From: a virus
Reading direction: 5' to 3' (one strand)
Virus record (IMG/VR): IMGVR_UViG_3300009509_000017
Location: 1 to 64,000 of that record
DNA: 64,000 nucleotides
The notes under the pieces are model-generated. The model searched no databases. It was not told where the DNA came from and worked only from the letters and a program-made list of their open reading frames with translations. This document shows, in pieces, positions 19,018-63,643 of this stretch. The translations under genes and the position numbers were made by a program. Numbering within the stretch: the first letter of the stretch is position 1; every line of letters begins with the position of its first letter.

Positions 19018-19404
19018 ATGATCCACATCATCTATGGTGACGGCAGTGTATTTAGTGGAGAGTGGCATCAGGCACCGTGGTATGACGTCCAGATCGTCAT
19101 CTACTATGATCCCGATACCGGGTGGACTTTGCGGCATGGCGCAATGGGTCGTAGTCCGTGCGACTTTTATAGAATGGATGGCGACTGTGTTGTTGGGATG
19201 GACACAGCAGGGATGATTGGCTACGTTATTGAGGATCTACTAGGTCTGGCGACCTGGGATTGTGATTTGGTACACCTGATCAACGTGGCTGTGAGCAGCG
19301 GCCTGGTCAAGATGGGCAAGATGCTGCCGACTGCCGTATGGCAAGCGAGGCATCGGCAGGCTATAGAGTTTAGGAACAAACTGCTACGAGATGGGGCAAC
19401 CTAA
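19018..19404 (+). CDS. Small virion-associated protein
   Basis: A 128-residue protein opening IHIIYGDGSVFSGEW, with aPW-x-V-Q-I-V strand and a C-terminal helix. Short phage proteins of this build (DGS near the start, then a W/P-x-x-V-Q-x-I/V strand) are common beside fibre genes. It overlaps the repeat-protein gene by 14 bp. Confidence 0.55.
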   Translation: MIHIIYGDGSVFSGEWHQAPWYDVQIVIYYDPDTGWTLRHGAMGRSPCDFYRMDGDCVVGMDTAGMIGYVIEDLLGLATWDCDLVHLINVAVSSGLVKMGKMLPTAVWQARHRQAIEFRNKLLRDGAT

Positions 19405-21685
19405 TACTGCATGCACCGACTGGAGATTTGCCCAGGCAACTGACAGTCGGAACTGGATAGAGAATGCTCACGTAACCCTGTCTGATCCAGACAGTTGGAT
19501 CGACACGGTTATAACCATACGTTACTTGCTGTATAACTCCGGCGATAAGGTGGAGACAGACGGCTACCGTATGGAGCGGACCATTGATGGTGGCACTAAT
19601 TGGGTCGCCATCACCGGGTCTGACACGTATGTTCAGTCGGCGGATCACCCATACCGCACAAACGATCAAGCCACGTCCCAGGAATTGGGCAGCGGGACAT
19701 TTGATGAGGGTTACTGGATTGATGACGGCCAGTCACCTGAATATCAGTTTGCTAATGGCCAGGAGTCAGAGAACGAGTTTTCTTTTAAGTTCACGACAGC
19801 TTGCGCTGGAGAGACCGTCGAGATCCGCATAGCCTTTGATGATGGTACTCCCCTGGATGGCTATACCTATAGCAATCCAAGTCTTACCTTTTCACCTAAC
19901 GAGGTCATTGTCACACCCGCAGCCGGCTATGCCATCGGCTACGGGCTGGACCCAACGGTCATCCTGGGCAGCGTCACCGTCTCCCCTGCCAGCGGCTATG
20001 CCATCGGCTACGGGCTGGACCCAACGGTGGTGCTTGGCAGTATCACCCTGTCGCCTGCCAGCGGCTATGCCATCGGCTACGGGCTGGACCCAACGGTCAT
20101 CCTGGGCAGTATCACCGTCTCCCCGGCCAGTGGTTACGCAATCGGCTATGGGTTGGACCCAACGGTGGTGCTTGGCAGCATCACTGTCTCCCCGGCCAGC
20201 GGCTATGCCATCGGCTACGGGCTGGACCCAACAGTACTTGTTGGGGCTGGCGCCGACATTACTAGATTTCTTTGGATCGTAACCGCTGCGCCTGCGGGAG
20301 TCACCATATCGCCTGCGGCGGGCTACGCAATCGGCTATGGGTTGGACCCAACGGTCATCCTGGGCAGCATCACTGTCTCCCCTGCCAGTGGCTACGCCAT
20401 CGGCTACGGGCTGGACCCAACGGTGGTGCTTGGCAGCATCACCCTGTCGCCTGCCAGTGGTTACGCAATCGGCTATGGGCTGGACCCAACAGTCATCCTG
20501 GGCAGTATCACCGTCTCCCCGGCCAGTGGTTACGCAATTGGCTACGGGCTGGACCCAACGGTCATCCTGGGCAGTATCACCCTGTCGCCTGCCAGCGGCT
20601 ACGCAATCGGCTATGGGCTGGACCCAACAGTTATCCTGGGCAGTGTCACCGTCTCCCCGGCCAGTGGCTACGCCATCGGTTATGGTGTTGATCCCACGGT
20701 GGTTGCTGGCGGAGACGTTGTAGTTCAGCCTGCCAGTGGCTATGCCATCGGCTACGGGCTGGACCCAACGGTCATCCTGGGCAGCGTCACCGTCTCCCCG
20801 GCCAGTGGCTATGCCATCGGCTACGGGCTGGACCCAACAGTCGTCCTGGGCAGTATCACCGTCTCCCCGGCCAGTGGCTATGCCATCGGCTACGGGCTGG
20901 ACCCCACCGTCCTTGTTGGCGATATAATACTGCAGCCTGCAGCGGGCTATGCAATCGGCTACGGGCTGGACCCAACAGTTGTCCTGGGCAGTATCACCCT
21001 GTCGCCTGCCAGCGGCTACGCAATCGGCTATGGGTTGGACCCAACGGTGGTGCTTGGCAGTATCACCCTGTCGCCTGCCAGCGGCTACGCAATCGGCTAC
21101 GGGCTGGACCCCACCGTCCTTGTTGGCGATATAATACTGCAGCCTGCAGCGGGCTATGCAATCGGCTATGGGTTGGACCCAACGGTCATCCTGGGCAGTA
21201 TCACCGTCTCCCCGGCCAGTGGTTACGCAATCGGCTACGGGCTGGACCCAACAGTCGTCCTGGGCAGTATCACCGTCTCCCCGGCCAGTGGCTATGCCAT
21301 CGGCTACGGGCTGGACCCCACCGTTATTGTTGGCGATATAATACTGCAGCCTGCAGCGGGCTACGCAATCGGCTATGGGTTGGACCCAACGGTGGTGCTT
21401 GGCAGTATCACCCTGTCGCCTGCCAGCGGCTACGCCATCGGCTATGGGCTGGACCCATGGGTCATTCAGAGCAGTTTGGTGATCAGTCCCACCAGCGGTT
21501 ATGCCATCGGCTACGGACTGGACCCAACGGTGACCATTGGCTTTGCTATAGTGATCTCCCTAGATGCAGACAGTTATGTTTGCACGGAACTGGAGTCTGG
21601 CACAAGTCATGTCTATACAGAAGACGGATCTCCCAGTAGAGTGTGGTATGATCTGGCGATAGAATGTTACATATCGGGGGTGTAA
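19391..21685 (+). CDS. Giant-repeat surface protein with 23 copies of a 23-residue unit
   Basis: A 764-residue protein. Residues about 1-170 form a beta-rich N domain. Then come 23 copies of a unit of mostly 23 residues whose invariant core is GYAIGYGLDPTV, joined by short V/I-rich strands with Ser-Pro-Ala. One unit is followed by a longer insert (GAGADITRFLWIV). The last 40 residues form a separate cap. Such regular strand-turn units suggest a long beta-solenoid or fibrous rod. It sits among fibre-like genes, so it is likely exposed on the virion. Confidence 0.8.
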   Translation: MGQPNTACTDWRFAQATDSRNWIENAHVTLSDPDSWIDTVITIRYLLYNSGDKVETDGYRMERTIDGGTNWVAITGSDTYVQSADHPYRTNDQATSQELGSGTFDEGYWIDDGQSPEYQFANGQESENEFSFKFTTACAGETVEIRIAFDDGTPLDGYTYSNPSLTFSPNEVIVTPAAGYAIGYGLDPTVILGSVTVSPASGYAIGYGLDPTVVLGSITLSPASGYAIGYGLDPTVILGSITVSPASGYAIGYGLDPTVVLGSITVSPASGYAIGYGLDPTVLVGAGADITRFLWIVTAAPAGVTISPAAGYAIGYGLDPTVILGSITVSPASGYAIGYGLDPTVVLGSITLSPASGYAIGYGLDPTVILGSITVSPASGYAIGYGLDPTVILGSITLSPASGYAIGYGLDPTVILGSVTVSPASGYAIGYGVDPTVVAGGDVVVQPASGYAIGYGLDPTVILGSVTVSPASGYAIGYGLDPTVVLGSITVSPASGYAIGYGLDPTVLVGDIILQPAAGYAIGYGLDPTVVLGSITLSPASGYAIGYGLDPTVVLGSITLSPASGYAIGYGLDPTVLVGDIILQPAAGYAIGYGLDPTVILGSITVSPASGYAIGYGLDPTVVLGSITVSPASGYAIGYGLDPTVIVGDIILQPAAGYAIGYGLDPTVVLGSITLSPASGYAIGYGLDPWVIQSSLVISPTSGYAIGYGLDPTVTIGFAIVISLDADSYVCTELESGTSHVYTEDGSPSRVWYDLAIECYISGV
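19916..21538 (+). repeat. Tandem 69-bp coding repeat array
   Basis: The DNA repeats every 69 bp with very high identity, including third codon positions. Several blocks recur as multi-unit blocks (for example units ending in GTTGGCGATATAATACTGC occur three times), showing that the array grew by recombination of blocks, not only single units. One insert near 20250-20310 interrupts the period. Confidence 0.95.
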
Positions 21686-45664: not shown

Positions 45665-45680
45665 GCCGGGAGAAACAGGA

Positions 45681-45714
45681 AAAAGGGGACAGGCAGCGTT
45701 GCCTGTCCCCTTTT
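45681..45714. terminator. Bidirectional terminator between converging operons
   Basis: A perfect 15-bp inverted repeat (45681-45695 / 45700-45714) with GCGT loop and runs of T on both strands after the stem. It ends the rightward late operon and the leftward operon that starts beyond 64 kb. The first 15 bases before the loop share ACAGGAAAAAGGGGACA with the terminator at 59286. Confidence 0.93.
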
Positions 45715-51952: not shown

Positions 51953-51991
51953 CGCTCTCCCCCTTTGTGAGATAGTAAGGTTTGTTTGTCA

Positions 51992-52030
51992 TAGGAATAA
52001 CGCCTGCCACAGTGGATCTGTGACAGGCGT
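51992..52030 (-). repeat. Leader hairpin module, class A
   Basis: CGCCTGCCACAG (52001-52012), loop TGGAT, CTGTGACAGGCG (52018-52029). The one mismatch is C-A on the + strand but a U-G wobble in minus-strand RNA, so the element acts as minus-strand RNA. Conserved CGTTATTCCTATG follows. Confidence 0.88.
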
Positions 52031-53822: not shown

Positions 53823-53899
53823 CGTTTTTCCTAAAAAGTGATTAGTTGTTGTCTATAGGAAAAACGCCTGCAGCGCTGGATCTGTGACAGCGCTGCAGG
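53823..53899 (-). repeat. Leader hairpin module plus 11-bp inverted repeat
   Basis: A hairpin CCTGCAGCGCTG / CAGCGCTGCAGG (53867-53878 / 53888-53899) keeps the GATC-TGTGA loop of class A but has a new stem. In minus RNA it is followed by CGTTTTTCCTA, which is also inverted 23 nt later (53823-53833), just before the ribosome site. The T5 run suits termination. Confidence 0.8.
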
Positions 53900-54480: not shown

Positions 54481-54802
54481 TGCCCGCATCCTCTGGCGGC
54501 TCTTTGTACAGGTCAGGGAACTTTTTACACACCCGGTGGTAGTTCCGGCTGACCGTCTTGTAGTTCGGCACACCCTTGCGCTTGCCACCGATGATGTCCA
54601 GCACAACCTCAACCTGTCCGTTCTCGATAAGCTGGCCCAGTCCATGAAACTCGTCCCAAACCTTGGCCACTACGGCGCCTACATGACCCCGCAGGTCAGG
54701 GTTGGTCTCCAGCACGAACCTGACCTGTGCAAACGTGCCACTGATGATGGGCACGTCTTTGTCCAGGCCAAACATACCAAGCTGTTTAGCTGTTCCCGCC
54801 AT
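54467..54802 (-). CDS. Unknown protein with HTH-like C-terminal part
   Basis: A 111-residue protein, ATG at 54802 after AAAGGGGGAC and overlapping the radical SAM gene by 17 bp. The C-terminal part (RKGVPNYKTVSRNYHRVCKK) may be a helix-turn-helix. Possibly a small regulator; otherwise unknown. Confidence 0.6.
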   Translation of the reverse strand: MAGTAKQLGMFGLDKDVPIISGTFAQVRFVLETNPDLRGHVGAVVAKVWDEFHGLGQLIENGQVEVVLDIIGGKRKGVPNYKTVSRNYHRVCKKFPDLYKEPPEDAGNARS

Positions 54803-55502
54803 TTCCGTCTGTCCCCCTTTCGCTTTCTCCACACCGTGGCGTGGGAATCTGTTTGCCCGCCAGGTTCAAAAGGGCATCTTCCATCCATCCCTTGGCGGCT
54901 GTGATAGCGCCATCTGTGATGGTGATCATGCCGTTGGTTGTCCAGTCCAGTAGGACCAGGTCACTTGCGGGCATTGGCGCGAGCAGGCTGCCCGCATTGT
55001 CCAGGGTTGACTCCACGTCGATGACCCGCTGGTTGGCAGACCCCACATACTGCATATGGTCGTTGTCCAGTTCCCACATGTAGGGACCATCCACCAGCAC
55101 CCTGATATGGAACAGGATCAGGCGACGGTAGCGCCACCCGATGGTTGTTCTGTTCACCAGTCGTTCCCACTTGTACCCGGTGTAGACGATGATGTGCGCC
55201 GACTGATCCAGTGCCCTTATGGCAGTGACCAGCATCAGTAGTTCCTCTGCCTGATCGAAAGGTTCACCACCAGTGATGGTGTATCGGTGCGAGCCACCAC
55301 CCAGGTCCTTGTTCCACTCTACCATCTGTCCTGCGAGTCTCATAGGGTCACCAGCCATGCCACCCCACTTGTCCCACAGTTCCTTGTTCTGGCAGCGCCC
55401 ACAGTGGATACTGCAGCCCTGGAACCAGATGACTGTGCGGACACCCGGGCCATCTACGGTGCTTGCCGCTCTCATGCCAGCGTATCTAAGTACTAGGCTC
55501 AT
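54786..55502 (-). CDS. nrdG: Anaerobic ribonucleotide reductase activating protein (radical SAM)
   Basis: A 238-residue radical SAM enzyme. It has a C-x3-C-x2-C cluster motif (C30, C34, C37 in GCSIHCGRC), a TGGEPF motif and the NrdG-like DGPGVRTVIWFQGC lead. NrdG makes the glycyl radical of the class III reductase, NrdD, which gives dNTPs in anaerobes. No nrdD gene is present in the window. Confidence 0.85.
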   Translation of the reverse strand: MSLVLRYAGMRAASTVDGPGVRTVIWFQGCSIHCGRCQNKELWDKWGGMAGDPMRLAGQMVEWNKDLGGGSHRYTITGGEPFDQAEELLMLVTAIRALDQSAHIIVYTGYKWERLVNRTTIGWRYRRLILFHIRVLVDGPYMWELDNDHMQYVGSANQRVIDVESTLDNAGSLLAPMPASDLVLLDWTTNGMITITDGAITAAKGWMEDALLNLAGKQIPTPRCGESERGTDGNGGNS

Positions 55503-55528
55503 CTTGCCTCACCCCCTTTGTGTTGTGC

Positions 55529-55562
55529 AGTAATAACGTATTGGCCAATGGATCTGTGACAG
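55529..55562 (-). repeat. Degenerate leader hairpin module
   Basis: Keeps the GGATCTGTGACAG half of class A, but the partner arm is replaced by the palindrome ATTGGCCAAT (55538-55548). The minus strand ends with ACGTTATTAC, then the nrdG leader. It lies right after the helicase stop. Confidence 0.6.
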
Positions 55563-55567
55563 CGAGC

Positions 55568-56941
55568 CTACAATTCATCCAGCGGCATGCGTATCTGCAG
55601 CCCGCCATCTTTCTTGATGATCCTGGTGCCCACCACCTGGTTGCACCAGGGGCGCATGTACAGGAACACGGTACCAATCGGCCCATTACGGTTCTTGCCA
55701 ACGATCCACTCCATCCTGCCCTTGGCTGTGGTATCCTCTGGCTCGTACAGTTCCTGCCTATAGAGAAAGACCACTACATCAGCATCCTGCTCTAGTGCGC
55801 CAGACTCTCTCAGGTCAGAGAGGATAGGCCGCTTGTCCTGACGCTGCTCGACACCACGAGATAGCTGTGCATTGGCGACGACAGGGATATTAAGATCCTT
55901 GGCCAGCAACTTTAGCGCACGAGATATAGCGTCTACCTGCTCTCGACGGTTGAACCCATCGCTGGACGTCATAAGCTGCACGTAGTCGATGGCCAGCAGG
56001 TCTAGCCCGTACTCCGCCATGTGCTTGCGGGCAGTTGCCCGTAGCTCTGCAGGATCTTTGGTGCCACTCCACACCACGTGCATGGGCAAGTCTGTCAGCC
56101 TGGACATCGCATCCATCAGGCGCAGGAACTCACCGTCAGCGAACTGCCCACGTCGCACGCTCTTGGTGTTCAGCCCTGCCTCTATGCAGCCCATGCGCTG
56201 CGCTAGTTGGTCAGCGCTCATTTCCAGACTGATGAGCAGGGTGCGCTTGCCGGCCTTAGACGCATTCATGCATAGGTTCAGCAGGGTAGCCGTCTTGCCC
56301 ACCGATGGCCTGGCGGCCAGGATGGTCAGGTCACCCTTGTGCAGCCCGCCTACCAGGTCGTCCACATCGTGCCATCCAGTTGGCACGCCCATGACCCCCT
56401 GTCGCTGCATCGCACTCTCTACCTGGTCATACAATCCGCTCATCAGTTGGGCTGCAGACAGCTTGGAGTCGTCCACCATATCTGCTGTAGCCTCAAAATA
56501 TAAGCGATCCGCATCGGCCAGGACATCGGTCAGGTCCCGGCTCTTGTCATAGGCAGCCTGCGCTACCCTGGCGGCCATGTCCACCATCTTGCGTCTCTTG
56601 GACAGTGACCGCACGATGTTAGCGTAGTGTTCTACGTGTAGGCTGGTTGGAGTTTCCAAAGAAAGTTCAGTGAGGTAGGTAGGTCCACCGCACTTGTCGA
56701 GATAACCCTGGTTGTCCAGAAAGTCTGACGTAGTCAGCAGGTCGATCTCGACCTGGCTCTGGTGCAAGCGTAACATGGCAGCGTAGATCCACTGGTGCCT
56801 GTCACGCCAAAAGTCGCCCGGTGCCAGCTTGTCGCTGATCCTGACAATTGCGTGTGGATCGATCAGCAGCGCACCAAGTACTCCCTGCTCTGCCTCTATA
56901 GAGGACAGAGGTTCTGGCTTGCTAGTCTTCCGTGTTGCCAT
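55568..56941 (-). CDS. dnaB: Replicative DNA helicase (DnaB family)
   Basis: A 457-residue hexameric helicase. N-terminal domain about 10-130, then RecA-fold with Walker A ARPSVGKT (210-217), H1a SLEMS (238-242), Walker B in AIDYVQLM, and an arginine-finger region near the C terminus. Normal length. It overlaps the loader gene by 20 bp. Confidence 0.95.
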   Translation of the reverse strand: MATRKTSKPEPLSSIEAEQGVLGALLIDPHAIVRISDKLAPGDFWRDRHQWIYAAMLRLHQSQVEIDLLTTSDFLDNQGYLDKCGGPTYLTELSLETPTSLHVEHYANIVRSLSKRRKMVDMAARVAQAAYDKSRDLTDVLADADRLYFEATADMVDDSKLSAAQLMSGLYDQVESAMQRQGVMGVPTGWHDVDDLVGGLHKGDLTILAARPSVGKTATLLNLCMNASKAGKRTLLISLEMSADQLAQRMGCIEAGLNTKSVRRGQFADGEFLRLMDAMSRLTDLPMHVVWSGTKDPAELRATARKHMAEYGLDLLAIDYVQLMTSSDGFNRREQVDAISRALKLLAKDLNIPVVANAQLSRGVEQRQDKRPILSDLRESGALEQDADVVVFLYRQELYEPEDTTAKGRMEWIVGKNRNGPIGTVFLYMRPWCNQVVGTRIIKKDGGLQIRMPLDEL

Positions 56942-57488
56942 CCATCCCCCTTTCGAGTAGGGCAGCGACTGTGCCCGGTGTTAGTTGCCATGTTGCCACT
57001 CTCTGCCAATTCTCCACCATGGCAGGGTAGATCTGCTTGAGCCAGTGTGCCCGGTCTGTTGGTATGTTATCACTGGCAGACAGGTACTTGACACCACCGA
57101 TGGCGTCCACTGCCAATTCCACCACGTGGTGCGACCACTTGATAGGCCCATAGCCGCCGCCAGGCAGTGGCATGCCACGTGTGCCGTACTCCATGATATT
57201 GTGCCTGACCTCAGCCCAGGCATCCTCTGCACTTGGCAGACCCAGGTGCTCTGCTACCTCTGCCAGTGTAGCCTTGCGCACCACGGCTGGTGGTGGCATT
57301 ATGGTCGCCATATCCCATGTGCGCAGAATGCGCAACACCCCTGCTTGTATGGCATTGATCGGCAAGCCGTCCAGTACCAGGGCATATGCCTGGATATTGC
57401 GGAGATTCAACCCAGGTGCTTGTGGCAGCCCATCATTCAGCACCCGCAGTGTCTTGCCCAGTTCTACTAGCCGCTCTTGGGATATCAT
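56922..57488 (-). CDS. Putative helicase loader
   Basis: A 188-residue helical protein next to the helicase gene. The start (residues about 5-80) with a PPPAVVRKATL turn near 65-75 recalls G39P-like loader/inhibitor proteins (Px-P-aeiR pattern). No ATPase motif. It overlaps the helicase by 20 bp and the initiator gene by 4 bp. Confidence 0.65.
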   Translation of the reverse strand: MISQERLVELGKTLRVLNDGLPQAPGLNLRNIQAYALVLDGLPINAIQAGVLRILRTWDMATIMPPPAVVRKATLAEVAEHLGLPSAEDAWAEVRHNIMEYGTRGMPLPGGGYGPIKWSHHVVELAVDAIGGVKYLSASDNIPTDRAHWLKQIYPAMVENWQRVATWQLTPGTVAALLERGMDGNTED

Positions 57489-58702
57489 GCTGGCACCCCC
57501 AGTTCTAGCGCACCCTCTAGCTGCAGGATGGCTTGCTCTGTCATGTCCGATCCACTCGTCGCCGGCCTTTTCTTGCCTGGCCTACTGGCGTAGTACAGAT
57601 CGATCCGTGCCTCATCCGGCAACACATCTGATACAGCCATGTCCGCCTGCATCTTTCGCAGGTCGCCTGCGATGACACGTAGTGTGTTGCTGGTCGAGAT
57701 AGGTGACACGATGTCAAAGGTCCAGTCCTGGTTCAGTGTCCGCCTGTAATGCAGTAGCTGGAGACCCCATCTGGCATTCCGCACAACAGCTTGCCTTGCC
57801 GGAGTCTGGCCAGCCATACGCATGTCATCTGCAAAGGCTATGAACGTCTCGACTATGCCACGTCGCCACTGGGTGATCGTGGTCTTGACTGACGGTGTGG
57901 CGATGTCAAACAGTGTGCTAAACAGGCAGGCATACTCGTAGACGTCCACCCAGGACACCTTGAACGGGAATGTCACTCTACGGTTGGTGTTATACCACGC
58001 AGCCTGCACCAGGTCCATGTTCTGCCTGGCCTGGCCAGATCCAGGCGTGGCTATCTGTGCCTTTTCGTCATCGGTCAGATCGGCCATGTCGCCATTCAGG
58101 ATCACGCTACTTTTGTGCTCGTTGCGCTCGCCAAAGACTTCATCCAGCACCTGGCCAGAAGGCGACGGCTCGCCGTCGCTTTTCTTGTGAGTATTCTCTT
58201 GTGTAGTCTGTGTAGTACTCTCTGGAATAGATTGCTGGTTTTCCGCATTCTGGTCTGCGGGTTCTGCGGGTTTAGTTTGCGGGTTTCCTGCATCCTTGTC
58301 TGCGGGTTTCCTGCAATCTGGAGTCTGGCAATCCTGCAGCCAGGCCATGAGGATCTTGGTGAGCTTGGCAAAGTGAATGCGGAAATAGAGCCTTGCTGGC
58401 ACGTCCATCAGTTTCTCGCTCAGGACCCCGAGCTTGATCAGTTTGCGCCTGACTCTCTCTTGCTGCGACCTGGTCAGTGCCGTCTCGTTGTAGATCTCTC
58501 CCTGTGTCTTGGCCACCCACCCAGGTTTCCAGGTACCTTTGTCGTGCCAGTACATAATCTGTGCCAGGAACAGGGCTGCAGGTATGTCGTTGCTCAGTGC
58601 CTTGGCCAGGGCAGGGTGGTAGGCGACCGGACGGTCACCCAGGATAGACCACACTGCCAGGGCTGCGTCACCCCACGGTGTTGTACGCTGTTCATCTGCC
58701 AT
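57485..58702 (-). CDS. Replication initiator-like protein
   Basis: A 405-residue protein. The N-terminal domain (about 20-125) has a winged-helix layout (ALFLAQIMYWHDKG, TQGEIYNETALTRSQQERVRRKLIKLGVL) as in phage replication proteins that feed DnaB. A Gln/Glu/Thr-rich linker follows (about 130-180), then a helical C-terminal domain (210-405). Start 58702 overlaps the upstream gene by 11 bp. Confidence 0.75.
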   Translation of the reverse strand: MADEQRTTPWGDAALAVWSILGDRPVAYHPALAKALSNDIPAALFLAQIMYWHDKGTWKPGWVAKTQGEIYNETALTRSQQERVRRKLIKLGVLSEKLMDVPARLYFRIHFAKLTKILMAWLQDCQTPDCRKPADKDAGNPQTKPAEPADQNAENQQSIPESTTQTTQENTHKKSDGEPSPSGQVLDEVFGERNEHKSSVILNGDMADLTDDEKAQIATPGSGQARQNMDLVQAAWYNTNRRVTFPFKVSWVDVYEYACLFSTLFDIATPSVKTTITQWRRGIVETFIAFADDMRMAGQTPARQAVVRNARWGLQLLHYRRTLNQDWTFDIVSPISTSNTLRVIAGDLRKMQADMAVSDVLPDEARIDLYYASRPGKKRPATSGSDMTEQAILQLEGALELGVPA

Positions 58703-59069
58703 GGCTGTAGTCTCCAGGTGACACTGCGTCCACAAAGATATCGTCTCCTGCGGCAGGTGTGCAGTCGGTGGTACCGAACCGTGGCGGCTGTCCATCTAGT
58801 GTGGCCAGCCTGTACCCCACTGGCACACCGTCACGGACGACAGGGATCAGTCTGCCCAGGTCGCCATCGATCCGGCGCCCATCTGCAAAGATGGCCACCC
58901 CGCTTGCCATCAGGTAGCCAGTGTCTTCATCTACCCATTGCCGCTCGATCTGTAGCTCAGTCACCCTTGGTAGTGTAGCGTACTCAGTGGGGACCTCTGC
59001 CTGTAGGGACTTGCCCAGTGCGTCCAGTAGCGCTTGCTTTGCTTTCTCGAACTCTTCTGCTGTTGGCAT
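58692..59069 (-). CDS. First gene of the replication operon, unknown
   Basis: A 125-residue protein with a helical N terminus and a beta-rich middle (YLMASGVAIFADGRRIDGD). It is the first gene after the structured RNA and promoter at 59.1-59.25 kb, with AGGGAAAGGA before its ATG. No family recognised. Confidence 0.65.
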   Translation of the reverse strand: MPTAEEFEKAKQALLDALGKSLQAEVPTEYATLPRVTELQIERQWVDEDTGYLMASGVAIFADGRRIDGDLGRLIPVVRDGVPVGYRLATLDGQPPRFGTTDCTPAAGDDIFVDAVSPGDYSHGR

Positions 59070-59093
59070 AGTCTATCCTTTCCCTAAGATAGA

Positions 59094-59184
59094 ACAGAGG
59101 ACGTGGAGTCTGACCCGATGCGTAGTGCATCTTGGGTGGATCGCCCGGCATCTATAGCACCGGGCCAGACTGCACGTCCTCTGT
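59094..59184 (-). ncRNA. Structured three-way-junction RNA in the replication leader
   Basis: In minus RNA a 12-bp outer stem (59184-59173 / 59105-59094), a C-C mismatch and a 6-bp stem (AGTCTG/CAGACT) close a three-way junction. Arm one is GCCCGG/CCGGGC with 11-nt loop; arm two is ACCC/GGGT plus GATGC/GCATC with ACTAC loop; the only junction linker is GATCC. Thirty-three pairs are Watson-Crick. It sits 24 nt before the next gene's start and about 35 nt after the predicted transcript start. No known family (hammerhead, twister, tRNA) matches; it may be a riboswitch, attenuator or independent RNA. Confidence 0.75.
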
Positions 59185-59226
59185 AGTAGGCTACCTTGCA
59201 CTTTGTGGCCAGGCGATCCGGTAGCC

Positions 59227-59255
59227 ATTATAGCATAATGTCCGCCAGGGTGCAA
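59227..59255 (-). promoter_or_regulatory. Extended -10 promoter of the replication operon
   Basis: On the minus strand TTGCAC (59255-59250), 17-bp spacer, TGC-TATAAT (59232-59227). The full TATAAT with TGn extension compensates the weak -35. Two 9-bp direct repeats GCGATCCGG (59213-59221, 59260-59268) flank it and are placed like operators. Confidence 0.8.
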
Positions 59256-59285
59256 GTTTGCGATCCGGCAGATCAACAGGAAAAA

Positions 59286-59316
59286 GGGGACACGGCACCC
59301 CCCATGCCGTGTCCCC
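59286..59316 (-). terminator. Rho-independent terminator
   Basis: GGGGACACGGCA / TGCCGTGTCCCC (59286-59297 / 59305-59316), 7-nt loop, followed on the minus strand by TTTTTCC. It ends transcription of the upstream small genes before the replication promoter. Confidence 0.9.
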
Positions 59317-59320
59317 TGGT

Positions 59321-59949: not shown

Positions 59950-60330
59950 CGGCCTGCAGCCCAGTCTGTGACCCGGCCTTTCCCACCCCGCAGGCATCGC
60001 AGGTCTTTCGTGGGCGTCAGCGTCCAGCGCTGACCTTTCCAAAGCCACAGGTTCTAGTGCACCCCTGTGCACCAGGGCATTCTATACCCATGGGTCACCC
60101 CCCCCCTTGCATGTGTGAATTAAGTGCCGGCCCGGTAGGCAGGCCAGCGCACCCGCAGCCCGGGCCGGCAACAGGTCGCGATGTCCGTGGCGACCTTACG
60201 TGTCACCCCCTCTCTCTGTGCAAGCTGTGATGGTATTGGTAGGGACGGTTGTGTCTTCTCACCACGCCATTTGGTGCACCCGACAGCAGTCAAAGTTTGT
60301 GTTTGGTGTGTCGTCGTGCTCCGTCCCTAT
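59950..60330. other. Gene-free stretch with structured segments
   Basis: I see no gene here. An 11-bp inverted repeat (60125-60135 / 60160-60170, TGCCGGCCCGG type) and a second structure closed by TAGGGACGG (60240-60248) / CCGTCCCTA (60321-60329) are present. Inside the latter are CACCA/TGGTG and CGACA/TGTCG hairpins, giving another possible three-way layout. Confidence 0.5.
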
Positions 60331-60331
60331 C

Positions 60332-60371
60332 ATAGGAATAACGCCTGCCACAGTGGATCTGTGACAGGCAT
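60332..60371 (-). repeat. Leader hairpin module, class A
   Basis: Stem 60342-60353 with 60359-60370, identical in core to the copy at 51992, followed by CGTTATTCCTATG on the minus strand. It is placed after the stop of the gene at 60376. Confidence 0.85.
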
Positions 60372-62751: not shown

Positions 62752-62781
62752 GTTACACCCCCTTACAGTGATGTGTGTTGC

Positions 62782-62820
62782 ATAGGAATAACGCCTGCCA
62801 CAGTGGATCTGTGACAGGCG
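62782..62820 (-). repeat. Leader hairpin module, class A
   Basis: Stem 62792-62803 / 62809-62820, same as the 51992 copy. After CGTTATTCCTATGCAA the minus strand reads CACACATCA, as in the next copies, then AAGGGGGTG. Confidence 0.88.
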
Positions 62821-63575: not shown

Positions 63576-63605
63576 AGTGCACCCCCTCATGTGATGTGTC
63601 TTGCA

Positions 63606-63643
63606 CAGGAATAACGGCTGGCAGCGTGTATCACTGCCAGCCG
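63606..63643 (-). repeat. Leader hairpin module, class B
   Basis: CGGCTGGCAG (63615-63624) / CTGCCAGCCG (63634-63643). Flank and leader are the same as at 63131, down to GACACATCACATGAGGGGGTG. Confidence 0.88.

Follow-up and report, generated by a model that had tools for sequence, protein, structure and literature searches.

What does a highly structured RNA do when it lies between the promoter of a phage replication operon and the first gene of that operon? The question is raised by a 64,000-nucleotide stretch of viral DNA (positions 1 to 64,000 of the IMG/VR record IMGVR_UViG_3300009509_000017; hereafter the window), in which the initial annotation described a 91-nt three-way-junction RNA. 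The element is a conserved switch-like leader RNA that forms a new sequence family, it most likely controls the replication operon by means of RNA pairings that compete with one another, and the leader RNA probably decides whether the phage begins replication.

The element itself is real. Its minus-strand minimum free energy (MFE) is −57.7 kcal/mol, compared with −28.5 ± 3.3 kcal/mol in shuffled sequences (z = −8.8; 0/200 shuffles reach it), and it is the most stable minus-strand 91-mer of the 70,268-bp record, none of 14,036 others being as low. The 18-bp closing stem with its single mismatch (12 bp, a C·C mismatch and 6 bp), arm 1, the GATCC linker and arm 2, all part of the original description, are present in the window sequence. 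With RNA parameters the MFE fold is a straight rod of 12 bp, the C·C mismatch and 15 bp with a ragged tip, and the three-way-junction fold lies above it at −54.1 kcal/mol; with DNA parameters the minimum is a three-way-junction fold. Both folds have the closing stem in common and differ in the partner of the segment S1, which is S2 (arm 1) in the junction and S4 in the rod. The parts of the element are as follows.

59094–59184, minus strand: leader RNA element, 91 nt, defined by fold, homologue and compensatory changes
59173–59184, minus strand: lower stem, 5′ strand, pairing with 59094–59105
59094–59105, minus strand: lower stem, 3′ strand, pairing with 59173–59184
59157–59171, minus strand: middle and upper stem, 5′ strand, including S1 (GCCCGGUG, 59158–59165); 15 bp here and 14 bp in the relative described below
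59143–59150, minus strand: S2, the 3′ strand of arm 1, pairing with S1
59138–59149, minus strand: seqB, GCCGGGCGAUCC, comprising most of S2 and the GATCC linker
59113–59137, minus strand: arm 2 of the proposed three-way junction
59107–59121, minus strand: middle and upper stem, 3′ strand (S4), from the helix listing and the alignment

Consistent with its description as unclassified, the element has no covariance-model match in Rfam at the gathering cut-off, and only chance matches to miRNA and long-RNA families at E = 10; a BLASTN search with leader and element gave no match among phages. A tRNA or tmRNA was rejected, none being detected, as was a mobile repeat, since no second copy exists in the record. 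A coding region was likewise rejected: no conserved open reading frame (ORF) spans the element, as first claimed, and the indels relative to its homologue are not multiples of three.

This homologue was reached through the capsid protein of the window phage, which is 81% identical in IMGVR_UViG_3300022220_000004 (G001; hereafter the relative). The two phages are syntenic over the replication block, their O-like proteins are about 51% identical, and the relative carries in the same slot an 89-nt element that is identical at 62 of 87 aligned positions. The initial annotation had proposed a search for compensatory changes in homologues; in this one sequence pair, which comprises the only two homologues found, such changes occur in the lower stem (three) and in arm 1 (two). 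All 12 pairs of the lower stem are kept through three two-sided changes (C-G to G-C, A-U to G-C and G-C to U-G; permutation p = 0.004), and all 8 pairs of arm 1 through two G-C to A-U changes (permutation p = 0.004), while the upper rod keeps 8 of 9 pairs with two G-U to A-U changes. Compensation in the closing stem and arm 1 indicates selection for RNA structure on the minus strand, which was the strand originally assigned and is also favoured by the G-U pairs of arm 1 and the rod, as these would be C-A on the opposite strand. The three-way junction fares less well as a whole: its closing stem and arm 1 are maintained, but arm 2 is lost in the alignment with the relative, the 27-bp rod is computed to be more stable than the junction in both phages, and the arm-1 form of the relative lies 11 kcal/mol above the rod. 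Rather than a static Y, the data favour a molecule whose pairings compete (rod, arm 1 and the transcript 5′ end), the three-way junction being no more than one of its transient states. A covariance model built from both leaders found no third member among 23 records, and a degenerate palindrome scan of genome contigs gave 9 matches, about the chance level, in which the apex is not conserved.

The surroundings of the element agree with its placement in the 5′ leader of the replication (DnaB) operon, the minus-strand order being terminator, promoter, leader, element, Shine-Dalgarno, 125-aa gene, O-like, P-like and DnaB genes.

59285–59317, minus strand: strong intrinsic terminator, 14 bp with a TTTTTCC tail, ending the upstream gene block; the relative has a counterpart with the same TTTTTCCTGTTG tail
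59256–59266, minus strand: GGATCGCAAAC, a copy of the GATC[G/A]C motif that immediately precedes the −35 box and is not transcribed; GATCAC in the relative
59227–59255, minus strand: promoter TTGCAC-17-TATAAT with an extended −10 (TGC before TATAAT); TTGACA-18-TATAAT in the relative
59208–59219, minus strand: seqA-like transcript 5′ end, GGAUCGCCUGGC, complementary to seqB
59076–59093, minus strand: UCUAUCUU, pairing over 8 bp with the Shine-Dalgarno region AGGGAAAGGAUAGA; a different 8 bp in the relative, UCUUUUCU:GGAAAGGA
58692–59069, minus strand: first gene of the operon, 125 aa, of no family, homologous to the first gene of the relative
57485–58795, minus strand: O-like replication initiator
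56922–57488, minus strand: P-like helicase loader, by a weak family match
55568–56941, minus strand: DnaB replicative helicase, by family match

The terminator insulates the leader; an identical 18-nt sequence, CCCCTTTTTCCTGTT, occurs in two strong terminator tails of the window (45674–45691 and 59275–59292), and the tail is also found in the relative. The promoter had been called strong, a description that rests on its TATAAT box with the extended −10, since the −35 box matches the consensus at 3/6 positions. Further along, the replication operon encodes an anaerobic ribonucleotide reductase activating protein of the radical SAM type (54786–55502), hinting at an anaerobic host.

A long inverted repeat adjoining replication genes might also be a replication origin or a DNA cruciform. 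This is most improbable: lambda-like iterons (GGTTTCCTGCA and GCGGGTT, about 58230–58320) occur within the O-like gene of both phages in nearly identical form and mark a lambda-like origin there rather than at the element, and the G-U pairs favour a minus-strand RNA.

The leader has a third pairing, which the initial annotation had missed. When all helices of both leaders are listed, the leading set consists of the upper rod, the lower rod, a 5′-end helix and then arm 1, and the 5′-end helix joins the first nucleotides of the transcript (seqA) to S2 and the GATCC linker (seqB). It comprises 12 bp here (GGAUCGCCUGGC:GCCGGGCGAUCC) and 15 bp in the relative (GUGGAUCACCUGACA:UGUCGGGUGAUCCGC), and an equally long helix with the element arises in 26/5000 shuffled upstream sequences for the window and 0/5000 for the relative. 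The helix is maintained by two double compensatory changes (permutation p = 0.0016), a test that overlaps that of arm 1, as the same two seqB changes enter both and each draws on a single sequence pair. Each of these changes has its counterpart in S1 as well as in the 5′ segment, showing one strand kept complementary to two rival partners. By duplex energy, seqA falls outside the top 10 genome-wide partners of the apical region in the window phage and ranks about seventh in the scanned stretch of the relative. In folds of the growing transcript from both phages, the seqA:seqB helix is the MFE structure at about 90–120 nt and is replaced by the rod at about 120–130 nt.

The GATC[G/A]C motifs change together between the phages, so that they may be read as DNA operators: the GGATC[G/A]C copies upstream of the −35 box, at +1 and in the element would bind a phage regulator that roadblocks transcription, and the hairpin would be a separate matter. 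All three sites are GATCGC here and GATCAC in the relative, sites 1 and 2 keep a GATC-to-GATC spacing of 47 bp in both, and the seqA/seqB motif could equally be an operator. We consider this unlikely, because site 1 matches over only 6–7 bp, a search for the regulator found none, no such array occurs elsewhere (11 copies of GGATCGCC in 70 kb, 2 of them in this leader), and operators leave unexplained that two compensations also tie seqB to S1 within the hairpin.

The mutually exclusive stages given by prefix folding would also suit a cis-acting attenuator, in which the rod conditionally terminates the transcript that contains it, the seqA:seqB helix or a bound factor delays its folding and no RNA acts in trans. 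A more distant relative (G004), with a 46% identical capsid protein, has a sequence-unrelated 86-nt hairpin of up to 23 bp in the slot bounded by a TTGACA/TATAAT promoter and its O-like gene; the hairpin is followed by a strong terminator tail, TTTTTTGTTG (T score 5.0). This suggests that a long leader hairpin recurs in the slot and can be a terminator; the leader-apex (seqA-type) complementarity there is no better than in shuffles (1429/3000), and L059, which is related to the G004 initiator, is preceded by different small hairpins. In the window, however, the T score of the rod tail is weak (1.9) and in the relative moderate (2.9), compared with 4.1 for the upstream terminator, the rod is not among the terminators called by the scan, and seqA pairing has no direct unwinding effect on the closing stem. 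With its poor U tract the rod is a candidate site of termination only, and attenuation in cis is possible but rather unlikely.

RNase III sites are a feature of lambda and T7 leaders, and the rod, a near-perfect duplex of about 27 bp with one mismatch at a fixed place and a position right before the Shine-Dalgarno, might be such a site; the duplex would be cut, or would protect the operon mRNA as a 5′ stabilising hairpin, with no switch involved. Cutting of the rod by RNase III is compatible with all models, but as a full account it is improbable, for it leaves the conserved apical sequence, the arm 1 compensation and the seqA:seqB complementarity unexplained.

Control of the replication operon by an RNA of the type of the satellite phage P4 CI RNA is the plausible, if tentative, reading that we prefer. 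Transcription of the untranslated leader, of which the element is the core, would start about 35 nt upstream of the element. The first ~15 nt of the transcript, seqA-like, are complementary to seqB, a segment close to the hairpin tip that can pair with either S1 (arm 1) or seqA; S1 in turn can pair with seqB or, in the full rod, S4. The rod, excised or accumulating as a stable RNA, may bind the seqA of new leaders through seqB, and this would favour premature termination or block expression. In a lysogen the rod RNA would keep replication off, whereas on first entry, with no RNA accumulated, the leader would be read through. We infer the trans action, termination, processing and immunity of the leader RNA, and lysogeny of the window phage is a presumed part of this P4-type scheme. 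Each of the two phages has a tyrosine integrase gene. Searches of their records revealed no HTH_3 or S24-type repressor, a weak observation as the records are possibly incomplete; together these findings are as expected for a phage that uses RNA immunity. A broader proposal, possible rather than likely, is that of a new RNA immunity switch family in repressor-less temperate tailed phages: a leader hairpin would hold the replication operon off, its tip segment would be contested by its own stem and by the transcript 5′ end, and immunity groups would shift specificity through covarying segments.

Smaller repeats are abundant elsewhere in the record. An intergenic hairpin, CGCCTGTCACAGATCCACTGTGGCAGGCGTTATTCCTATG with variants whose stems differ but remain complementary, recurs about 24 times on the minus strand between 50180 and 70214 (for example 51982–52026, 60323–60367, 62773–62817 and 63596–63640), often followed by GAGGGGGTGCAA and ATG. 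The family of the relative has a different first half, CTGACAGTTTTACA, and the same second half, GTTATTCCTATG. The hairpin resembles a promoter, terminator or stoperator that is particular to each phage and whose specificity half can vary. Copies at 53846–53890, 55518–55562 and 70000–70268 of the record (L002 12001–12269) keep CTGTCACAGATCCA and a CGTT-type second half without the full 3′ arm, suggesting that recognition involves the sequence as such and not the hairpin alone; those at the record end adjoin GGCGCCCGATGCGACC repeats. The GTGGATC common to the element and the small hairpins was taken as a coincidence, because the small hairpins of the relative lack it. About 20 tandem 69-bp (23-aa) repeats occupy 19839–21572, inside a 764-aa ORF (19391–21685).

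As a structured RNA directly after an early promoter, ahead of an operon with further hairpins, the element recalls the put RNA of phage HK022, and might similarly modify RNA polymerase so that transcription continues past the hairpins between the operon's genes. But put RNA, of about 70 nt, consists of two separate stem-loops (PMC9378689) and has neither a long rod nor flank complementarity. The window element is one long rod, its homologue has no second stem, and no such element was found for the upstream operon despite its many more intergenic hairpins, making a put-like role very unlikely.

Other leader RNAs invite comparison too. The C4 RNA of P1 and P7 is an antisense RNA, small and structured, that originates in an operon leader, as the element would, and its covariance model (RF01695) gives no match to the element even at E = 10. 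To our knowledge, RNA-based control of lysogeny is known from very few systems (P4 and P1). The Gifsy-1 prophage leader RNAs IsrK and STnc1160, which their authors likened to P4 seqA/CI (PMC4825925), differ in host, genes and sequence. As described in PMC4825925, P4 CI RNA is processed from an untranslated leader and pairs with seqA and seqC, leading to premature termination that keeps the replication genes off.

The same helix search run on P4 (NC_001609) as a control yielded a 17-bp stem (8502 to 8425) whose tip, GGCAGCCTCC, forms 10 bp with GGAGGCTGCC in the Shine-Dalgarno region of the following gene; these helices we take to be the CI stem, seqB and seqC. Unlike P4 CI, to which the element has no sequence similarity, the window seqB also pairs inside the hairpin (arm 1), and no conserved downstream counterpart of seqC was found in either phage (7 bp over the start region of the relative and about 4 bp here). 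The operon is moreover of the O/P/DnaB type in a phage of about 70 kb that is not a satellite, so the likeness is one of layout and membership in the P4 CI type is not claimed. That layout comprises an untranslated leader between promoter and replication operon, a long closing stem with seqB near its tip complementary to the flanking leader, here an upstream seqA, and specificity segments that change together between relatives. A P4-like leader RNA in an unrelated lineage, absent from Rfam, would suggest more than one origin for such RNAs, which would be overlooked because their sequence is not conserved, and the seqA/seqB change between the two phages provides a directly testable specificity code.
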